From the NCBI RefSeq assembly GCF_030065535.1, contig NZ_JASJND010000004.1, forward strand, positions 372,001-436,000: 64,000 bases of DNA, read 5' to 3'. This stretch comes from Microbacterium dauci (GTDB taxonomy: Bacteria; Actinomycetota; Actinomycetes; Actinomycetales; Microbacteriaceae). A model generated the notes under the pieces. That model searched no databases. It had not been told where the DNA came from and worked only from the letters and a program-made list of their open reading frames with translations. The position numbers were made by a program, and so were the translations under genes. The number at the start of each line of letters is the position of its first letter. Position 1 is the stretch's first letter. This document shows positions 29,247-31,205 of the stretch, piece after piece.

Positions 29247-29873
29247 TCAGGACACGCGCCACGAGCGGGCGTCGTCGTTGAATGAGCCGAGGCTCGACGC
29301 GTTCGTCTGGTAGCCGTAGGTAGAGCCCGTGTAGCCGGTGCCGGAGAACAGGGCGGTCTTGCAGCCGTTGTAGCTCTTGAATGCGGACACGCGGCCGTTC
29401 CAGCCGTACTCGCCGAGGTTCGGCATCCCGTAGGTGTACGACGAGCAGTTGGCACCGGAGTACGCCATGGCGAACGAGCCGCCGCCGTAGTTGACGTCGT
29501 CGAAGATGCGGGAGATCAGGACGGCCGGCGCAGCAGACGCGGCCCGAGCCGTGGTCGAGGTCGACGACGTGGAGGTCTTGCGGGAGGCAGTGCTCTCCAC
29601 GAGCGTGAGGCCCGTCTCTTCCTTGACCGCCGTGGCGAGGTCGTCCTCGTTCTCGACGCAGACGCTCTGGCCGTAGTCCAGCGACGTGACGCAGTGCTTG
29701 CCCGGTTCGATGCGCGGCTCGAAGCGGGGCTCGATGATCGGCTCCTCCGCCGCTGCGGGAGCCGGCTTGGCGCCGACGGTGCTGGGCGTCGCCTGCGCAC
29801 CGGCGGTCGGTGCGAGCAGCATGAGCGCCAGGATGGCGGCGCCGGCGAGCGAGGTCGCCATTCGAGTCTTCAC
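29247..29873 (-). CDS. Secreted beta/gamma-crystallin-like protein (peptidase inhibitor I36 type)
   Basis: The protein has 208 residues. A signal peptide ends near AGA-QA (residue 26), followed by a Pro/Ala-rich segment and a Ser/Thr-rich linker (about 98-115). The C-terminal 90 residues (RIFDDVNYGGGSFAMAYSGA, then CSSYTYGMPNLGEYGWNGRV, and the repeat-like FSGTGYTGSTYGYQ) have the paired Greek-key pattern of beta/gamma-crystallin and SMPI-type (I36) proteins. Four cysteines (61, 72, 143, 171) could make two disulfides. It starts at GTG with AAGGGGA upstream. It is divergent from an ECF sigma operon and may be part of its regulon. Confidence 0.8.
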   Translation of the reverse strand: MKTRMATSLAGAAILALMLLAPTAGAQATPSTVGAKPAPAAAEEPIIEPRFEPRIEPGKHCVTSLDYGQSVCVENEDDLATAVKEETGLTLVESTASRKTSTSSTSTTARAASAAPAVLISRIFDDVNYGGGSFAMAYSGANCSSYTYGMPNLGEYGWNGRVSAFKSYNGCKTALFSGTGYTGSTYGYQTNASSLGSFNDDARSWRVS

Positions 29874-29988
29874 TACGTTGTCCCCTTGCAGTCGTGCCGA
29901 CCTGGCGGTGGCGGCTCATTCCATTCCACTCGGCCCCATATGGCGGTGCAACTCGCCGCGAGGGCGAATGTCGATTCCAGAACGGTTT

Positions 29989-30102
29989 GAGACGCATTGG
30001 TTTCGGCGGACATATGGGCGTGCAGAATCGTGGAGACGCACTCCGCGGATCGGACATATCCGGCCGCAAAAACCTTGAGACGCTTTTCGAGAGGTGGACA
30101 TA
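29989..30102 (+). promoter_or_regulatory. Three 44-bp-phased direct repeats GAGACGC-N12-GGACATA
   Basis: GAGACGC followed after exactly 12 bp by GGACATA occurs at 29989-30014, 30033-30058 and 30077-30102. Successive copies start exactly 44 bp apart, about four helical turns, so all face the same side of the DNA. The last copy ends 34 bp before the ATG of the ECF sigma gene. The spacers are unrelated, so the two heptamers are what is conserved. The layout fits either three stacked ECF-type promoters or an activator array. Confidence 0.75.
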
Positions 30103-30136
30103 GCGAGATGTGCAGGCAGTTTTGCAGGGGACGGGA

Positions 30137-30706
30137 ATGAGCGAGCTGATCTCGGAGCAGATGAGCGATCGCGAGCTTTTCGCGCGCCTTCGCGCCGATG
30201 AGATCGTCGCCTTCTCGGTGCTTTTCGATCGTCATCGCGCCCCGGTGTACTGGGCCGCGATGACGACGCTGCGGTCCGTGCAAGACTCCGAAGAGGTCGC
30301 GGCCGACGCCTTCCTCACGATGTGGGTGAAGCGCAAGTCGATCACCTTGTACGGAGAGTCGGCGCTGCCCTGGCTGCTCGTCACTGCGCAAAACCTCGCA
30401 CGCAATCGAGCTCGCGCGAACCGGCGCCGGCCGGCCGAATCGATCGACCTGTTCCCCGAGCCCGCCTCGCAGGCGCCGGGTACCGAGGACAAGATCGCGA
30501 CCGACGACGCCATCGCCCGACTTCGCACCGCCGTCGATCGGCTTGAGCCGACGGATCGGGCGATCTTCGAGCTTTGCATTCTCGAAGACCTGCCCTACAA
30601 GCAGGCGGCGACACGCTTGGGGACCACGCACGGGTCGATCCGGAACCGTCTGTCGCGATTGCGGCAACGGCTGCGGAACGATCTCGATCTCAATGGGGGA
30701 GACTGA
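30137..30706 (+). CDS. ECF-type RNA polymerase sigma factor
   Basis: This sigma-70-family factor of 189 residues has region 2 (about 20-85, FSVLFDRHRAPVYWAAMTTL then SEEVAADAFLTMWVK) and region 4 (about 135-185, LEPTDRAIFELCILEDLPYK then TRLGTTHGSIRNRLSRLRQR). No region 3 or 1.1 is present. It should recruit core polymerase to a small set of stress promoters. AGGGG precedes the ATG by 7 bases. The next gene starts 1 bp after its stop and codes for a membrane protein, the usual place of a regulatory partner. Confidence 0.9.
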   Translation: MSELISEQMSDRELFARLRADEIVAFSVLFDRHRAPVYWAAMTTLRSVQDSEEVAADAFLTMWVKRKSITLYGESALPWLLVTAQNLARNRARANRRRPAESIDLFPEPASQAPGTEDKIATDDAIARLRTAVDRLEPTDRAIFELCILEDLPYKQAATRLGTTHGSIRNRLSRLRQRLRNDLDLNGGD

Positions 30707-30707
30707 G

Positions 30708-31205
30708 ATGAGCTGGACGGATCTGCCGGACGGCGTCAACAGACGCATCACGTCCTTGGTGCGAGACGGGATCATTTCGCACACCAGACGGGTGCGCCGC
30801 GCGCGCATCGTGACCGCGACCGTCGTCGGCGTGTCGCTCGTCGCCGGTGGGACGGCGAGCACGGCGCTCGTGCTCGCTGGGCAGTCCGAACGGGCGCGCA
30901 GCGCGTACTGCTACAGCGAAACGAGCCTCACCAGCGAACAAGAGCAAGTCTCCCTGCCGCCCGAGATCATCGATGGCGTCGGCGACGACGAGGTCGTTCG
31001 TGCCGCGAAGCGGGCTGCGATGGCAGAAGACCTTTGCGGTGCGCTGTGGCGCGCGGGCGTCTTCTCCGAGACCGGAACGTCTGCCAACCCGGATCTCGCG
31101 ATCTGCGAAGCGGATGACGGCGTGCTCGCCGCGCTGCCGAAGTTCGACGGCGTGACCGACTCCCGCCTCTGTGAAGAAATGGGGCTGCTGGCACTCGTCC
31201 GCTGA
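30708..31205 (+). CDS. Single-pass membrane protein encoded with the ECF sigma factor, candidate anti-sigma
   Basis: This 165-residue protein has a short basic cytoplasmic head (1-33), a membrane helix at about 34-56 and an external domain with four cysteines (68, 110, 133, 155), probably two disulfides. It lacks the HxxxCxxC zinc anti-sigma motif, so it is not a standard ZAS protein. The gene follows the sigma gene directly, which suggests it holds the sigma factor at the membrane or reports an outside signal. No family is recognised. The anti-sigma role is inferred only from gene order and topology. Confidence 0.68.
   Translation: MSWTDLPDGVNRRITSLVRDGIISHTRRVRRARIVTATVVGVSLVAGGTASTALVLAGQSERARSAYCYSETSLTSEQEQVSLPPEIIDGVGDDEVVRAAKRAAMAEDLCGALWRAGVFSETGTSANPDLAICEADDGVLAALPKFDGVTDSRLCEEMGLLALVR

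Follow-up and report, generated by a model that had tools for sequence, protein, structure and literature searches.

The DNA analysed here, referred to below as the window, is a stretch of 64,000 nt from Microbacterium dauci (assembly GCF_030065535.1, contig NZ_JASJND010000004.1, positions 372,001-436,000 of the forward strand). It contains three direct copies of the motif GAGACGC-N12-GGACATA in front of a gene for an extracytoplasmic function (ECF) sigma factor. A candidate membrane anti-sigma factor gene follows the sigma gene directly, and a gene for a predicted secreted protein is transcribed divergently from the other side of the array (Table 1).

Table 1. Features of the array and of the neighbouring genes (coordinates in the window)
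Feature	Coordinates	Strand	Description and basis
Divergent secreted protein	29247-29873	-	Beta-gamma-crystallin / I36 peptidase inhibitor related; alignment profile
Copy 1 (distal)	29989-30014	+	GAGACGC 29989-29995 (-35-like), N12, GGACATA 30008-30014 (-10-like); predicted transcription start about 30020-30023
Copy 2	30033-30058	+	GAGACGC 30033-30039, N12, GGACATA 30052-30058; predicted transcription start about 30064-30067
Copy 3 (proximal)	30077-30102	+	GAGACGC 30077-30083, N12, GGACATA 30096-30102; predicted transcription start about 30108-30111
ECF sigma factor gene	30137-30706	+	189 aa, ATG start; Pfam, ECF superfamily model, ORF listing
Inverted repeat within the sigma gene	30229-30266		18-nt arms, 89% complementary, 2 nt between them
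Candidate membrane anti-sigma factor gene	30708-31205	+	165 aa; position, homologue alignment

In the sigma factor, Sigma70_r2, Sigma70_r4 and Sigma70_r4_2 all score above their Pfam cut-offs, as does the ECF superfamily model TIGR02937, which bears out the original prediction for the gene downstream of the array. Regions 2 and 4 of sigma-70 are the only recognisable domains, as in group IV factors, and the family profile finds solved ECF factors, SigK and SigE among them. In a phylogenetic tree the protein found no firm place, and long branches were flagged. The product of the next gene scores above the cut-off of none of the Pfam and NCBIfam models. It combines a short N-terminal part, one hydrophobic stretch and an ectodomain containing Cys and Trp residues, whose positions are invariant in the seven family members (aligned with six homologues); its predicted structure has a mean pLDDT of 69.9. 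From its position and the homologue alignment we take it to be the presumed anti-sigma factor. The divergent protein has a signal-like N-terminus, as judged by eye, and its family profile matches Protein S (1.2e-10) and clostrillin. It stays below the cut-off of the I36 model (PF03995; 13.1 against 21.1 bits), which a homologue in locus L124 passes with 25.4 bits. Its structural model is poor (mean pLDDT 60.3), and a fold search with this model returned nothing at E 0.001.

The geometry of the array is as originally described. Start-to-start spacing is 44 bp in both intervals, and 34 bp separate the end of the proximal copy from the ATG of the sigma gene. Both heptamers are the same in all three copies, while the 12-bp spacers match pairwise at only 3-4 of 12 positions, which suggests selection on every copy. 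The base in front of copy 2 is a G instead of a T. Outside the heptamers, the flanks share 12 of 30 positions between copies 1 and 2 (shuffle p 0.02), 11 of 30 between copies 1 and 3 (p 0.20) and 10 of 30 between copies 2 and 3 (p 0.11), at most a weak trace of a tandem duplication behind the array. The motif is rare in this wording. Within the window, only the three array copies match with fewer than three mismatches, and a single match with three mismatches lies at 2009-2034. Across all 13 contigs of the genome (2.88 Mb), GAGACGC-N{10,14}-GGACATA occurs exactly at these three places and nowhere else. With a T in front and up to three mismatches allowed, we obtained 23 genomic matches, array included, versus 22 for the pattern read backwards, so that no regulon with the exact wording of the array is visible and nothing outside it stands out. 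Six single exact matches in virus contigs were taken as chance.

Relatives of the sigma factor carry a recognisably similar element, usually as a single copy. We searched the protein in 58 genomes, 34 of them other genomes of the same genus, and retrieved the locus of the best match from 29 of those 34. All 29 homologue loci (33-40% identity) have exactly one site of the TGAGACG or CGAGACG type, with the geometry GAGAC-N15-GACA, some 50-120 bp ahead of the point where the sigma match begins. From locus to locus the spacer varies in sequence and the boxes stay constant, so the heptamer cores are conserved at constant spacing in these related loci. A paralogue in the same genome (contig C6) also has one promoter-like site, GTGAGACGAT...CGACACT, sharing GAGACG, the spacing and GACA with the array.

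A stricter family consensus, TGAGACGAT-N11-SGACACY, was scanned in 33 genomes, 20 from the genus and 13 from other families. It produced 24 sites against none for the reversed control, and these fell in 17 of the 20 same-genus genomes and in none of the 13 others. Thirteen precede an ECF gene, ten precede lipoprotein genes (7-59 bp upstream, the lipoprotein signal being judged by eye) and one (L184) precedes nothing recognisable. The looser pattern GAGACG-N13-S-GACAY has 14 exact matches in the genome of the window, three of which are the array. The other 11 comprise the paralogue promoter, three sites before lipoprotein genes (C8:50581, C10:192724 and C11:267360, all of the CGACAC form) and seven sites inside open frames. 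An open frame also crosses the paralogue, C10 and C11 sites, where genes were placed by start codon and lipobox. Allowing one mismatch raised the count to 162, versus 28 for the reversed pattern; this comparison was left unused, as the reversed pattern differs in composition. The simplest reading of the family sites is that they are promoters with target genes, and those before lipoprotein genes in the genus suggest a small regulon controlled by the paralogous ECF factor (G000:C6:92580-93110, L084). The lipoprotein genes that carry the family consensus are small and of two kinds (L181, L182, L186, L190, L191, L194, L196, L197, L200 and L202).

How do the boxes of the window relate to this family? 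The family consensus has TGAGACGAT and CGACACT where the array has GAGACGC and GGACATA. In a matrix derived from the 29 relatives, which themselves score about 20-29, copies 1 and 3 reach 8.2 and copy 2 stays below the threshold of 7; ten places in the window score at least 8. These weak scores are due to two changes, the C after GAGACG and the T-A ending the -10 box. Both are met again in nearer homologues: the proximal copies of L123, L162 and L163 read GGACAT, and the distal copies of L130 and L162 contain GAGACGC. The boxes of the window may thus be read as the variant of a sister group. Of 35 further loci (L117-L151), 16 carry a single copy, L124, L126 and L130 carry two each, and 16 show none under the patterns used; a wider pattern was applied to 11 of the 35, and some of the 16 may hold divergent sites. 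With the first regular expression L124 had shown one site and L126 and L131 none; the wider pattern gave two, two and one. L123 (48% sigma identity) is the nearest single-copy locus, and L128, also at 48%, has no site under the patterns used. L135 and L138 have a degenerate TGAGAGG...ACAT; with the matrix, L138 scores 12.7 and L151 scores 7.8.

Two-copy arrays precede homologous sigma genes in five loci from three other genera, with start-to-start spacings of 61 bp (L124), 61 bp (L126), 76 bp (L130), 65 bp (L162; 50% sigma identity to the window) and 66 bp (L163; 48%). With the window this makes six multi-copy loci in four genera. The original prediction had taken 44 bp for four helical turns that place all copies on one face, and had expected this phasing to recur in related loci. 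The heptamer cores do recur; the phasing does not. Taking 10.5 bp per turn, the 44-bp period amounts to 4.19 turns, which sets neighbouring copies about 69 degrees apart and the two outer copies, 1 and 3, about 137 degrees apart, and the spacings of the relatives correspond to 5.81, 6.19, 6.29 and 7.24 turns. Neither spacing nor face is conserved. In five of the six multi-copy loci (L203, L204, L206, L207 and L210), an element CGACACGCCG, also written CGACACGCC, stands 15-16 bases before the TGAGACG of the distal copy; the window is without it.

We also searched for tandem arrays at large. In 366 genomes of the genus, a tandem pattern with 4-34 bp between copies matched in 10, of which only the genome of the window holds such an array; by their sequence, the other nine are other repeats. 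In 398 genomes of the family, with 14-44 bp between copies, 26 matched and five were accepted (G000, which is the genome of the window, G605, G646, G687 and G741) because their loci contain homologues of the sigma factor together with the anti-sigma candidate or the I36-like protein. The match in G437 lies in an ECF locus but was rejected as a two-copy case, since no -10 box follows the second GAGACG there; the remaining matches were rejected for want of a sigma match in their loci. L130, with 51 bp between its copies, lies outside this pattern and was found by the protein search. As for the sigma factor itself, six other genomes of the genus have a match at 1e-34 or better (39-43% identity), identity reaches 48% in a sample of 299 family genomes, a scan of named genomes gave one remote match (21%), and the 41 plasmid records all stay below 60%.

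The divergent crystallin/I36-like gene and the anti-sigma candidate are common to all six multi-copy loci, and gene order in the two-copy loci is that of the window. In the single-copy locus L123, no divergent crystallin/I36-like gene was found within the stretch examined. Searching the anti-sigma alignment against the 398 family genomes returned 30 loci in 29 genomes (L203-L231 and the window), 22 of which have an I36-like match, partly non-divergent. The crystallin/I36-like gene, the ECF factor and the anti-sigma candidate thus apparently form a conserved module, of which we found no description among the openly licensed papers searched. Six of the 30 loci have two or more copies of the motif, eight have one and 16 have none; the six are the same as above and do not make an independent count, and the 16 include L209, which is cut by a contig end, and L231, which has no sigma match. 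In L124 at 72-563, a protein ending beside the I36-like gene weakly matches subtilase (20.4 bits; cut-off 21.8), and a similar protein is encoded in L126 (3076-3537). L124 may therefore hold a protease beside an inhibitor-like gene.

Taken together, these observations argue that each copy of GAGACGC-N12-GGACATA is a complete -35/-10 promoter of the downstream ECF factor, so that the array would consist of three stacked autoregulatory promoters, a reading to which we assign a probability of roughly 0.8. Of the possibilities raised by the original prediction, this is the most likely one: the same pair of boxes stands singly before all 29 same-genus homologues and the paralogue, and also before lipoprotein genes, and the orientation and distance of the copies fit a promoter of the downstream gene. 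We infer recognition by this particular sigma factor, the activity of each copy and the effect on gain. The sigma factor would transcribe its own gene and that of the presumed membrane anti-sigma factor from three stacked starts. Once released from the anti-sigma factor, it could use any of the three promoters, and the gain of the self-amplifying loop would be higher than with one.

Would such an arrangement give steep positive autoregulation, as was first proposed? RNA polymerase holoenzyme covers more than 44 bp of DNA. Adjacent copies should therefore compete, whereas copies 1 and 3 could be occupied at the same time. If neighbours exclude each other in this way, as the footprint of the polymerase suggests, the proposed steepness does not follow: without cooperative binding, stacking would raise output roughly additively and leave steepness as it is. 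The same transcripts would also yield the anti-sigma factor, and this would add a threshold.

A simpler account is that only one copy works, most likely the proximal one, and that the other two were left over from tandem duplication or serve as weak sites keeping holoenzyme nearby. Most motif-bearing relatives manage with a single copy, the flanks of copies 1 and 2 share slightly more than expected, and in L126, L162 and L163 a start region GTGAG like that of L123 follows the proximal and not the distal copy. However, identical heptamers around diverged spacers speak for selection on all three copies, and two copies persist in five relatives from three other genera. We consider a single working promoter unlikely, though the most serious competitor to stacked self-promoters.

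The array could have a further role. In all six multi-copy loci, a similar distance separates the distal copy from the start codon chosen for the divergent gene (114 bp in the window and 109, 110, 115, 114 and 105 bp in the others), so a sigma-loaded polymerase at the distal copy could act on that gene as well; start codons in single-copy loci with an I36-like gene are too uncertain for the same comparison. One may then speculate that the array is a shared switch for the three-part module, the distal copy also acting on the divergent gene and the further copies setting the gain of the self-loop. The number of copies, one, two or three, would be an evolvable dial of ECF response strength, working through mutually exclusive neighbouring promoters. 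This extension of the stacked-promoter reading is improbable.

Slightly less credible still is a sigma cascade, in which the array is also read by another sigma factor, for instance the C6 paralogue, and the gene is an output of that factor and not only of itself. The core and spacing shared with the paralogue's own promoter are in its favour, and the window protein resembles relatives of the paralogue in the segment presumed to read the -35 box. The -10 boxes differ, however (GGACATA versus CGACACT), and the presence of GGACAT in the proximal copies of L123, L162 and L163 indicates that this -10 goes with the window-type sigma factor; the clear lipoprotein targets in the genome of the window, too, have the CGACAC form. 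The alternative offered originally, that the heptamer pairs are activator sites on one helix face that bind cooperatively, has in its favour three direct copies at equal intervals in front of a gene, but it is very improbable given a period of 4.19 turns, the different spacings in relatives, the rule of single sites at a distance fitting the promoter itself, the lack of a regulator gene in the sigma/anti-sigma unit and the lack of any sigma-70-type promoter for the sigma gene or the divergent gene in a scan of 29860-30150, hence of any between array and gene.

ECF factors constitute the largest family of alternative sigma factors, and positive autoregulation is typical of them (PMC8103513, in the passages drawn on here). 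The locus resembles autoregulated group IV systems in having a sigma factor with regions 2 and 4, an anti-sigma candidate directly downstream and a self-type promoter in front. It departs from them in having three identical promoter copies where they have one, and in its boxes: the hallmarks given in those passages are AAC at -35 and CGT at -10 (PMC8103513), whereas the array has GAGACGC and GGACATA, of the GAGAC/GACAY type. Several promoters stacked before an ECF gene are described for Escherichia coli rpoE, with six promoters, P1-P6, of which P6 is called autoregulated; as presented there, these serve different sigma factors and regulators, whereas the copies in the window are the same promoter (PMC8103513). 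Pseudomonas aeruginosa algU is also among the closest known systems; compared here apart from the sequence and spacing of its promoters, it gave no sign of identical copies at equal spacing. The five two-copy modules share box core, orientation and gene order with the window and differ from it in copy number, in spacings of 61-76 bp and in the extra element 5' of the distal copy. Among the openly licensed papers searched, we found no description of three identical, equally spaced ECF promoters or of the motif GAGACGC-N12-GGACATA.

The array stands out for its three copies, where most relatives examined have one and few have two. Homologous genes preceded by one, two or three copies form a natural series, in which one could measure how promoter number affects the gain of a self-activating loop under anti-sigma control. 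ECF factors are a source of parts for synthetic circuits, and the family adds an ECF promoter motif outside the canonical type, whose likely targets are lipoprotein genes.

Two minor observations concern the start region. In 28 of the 29 single-copy promoters (L025-L053), a TGAGAGA, mostly GTGAGAGA, lies 6-8 bp after the -10 box, at about the expected transcription start; the copies in the window have no TGAGAGA, and copies 1 and 3 have GTGCAG at this place. At the predicted transcript start of copy 3, a GTG (30110) is in frame with the sigma gene, and a leaderless product nine residues longer than the ATG form is possible from this codon.
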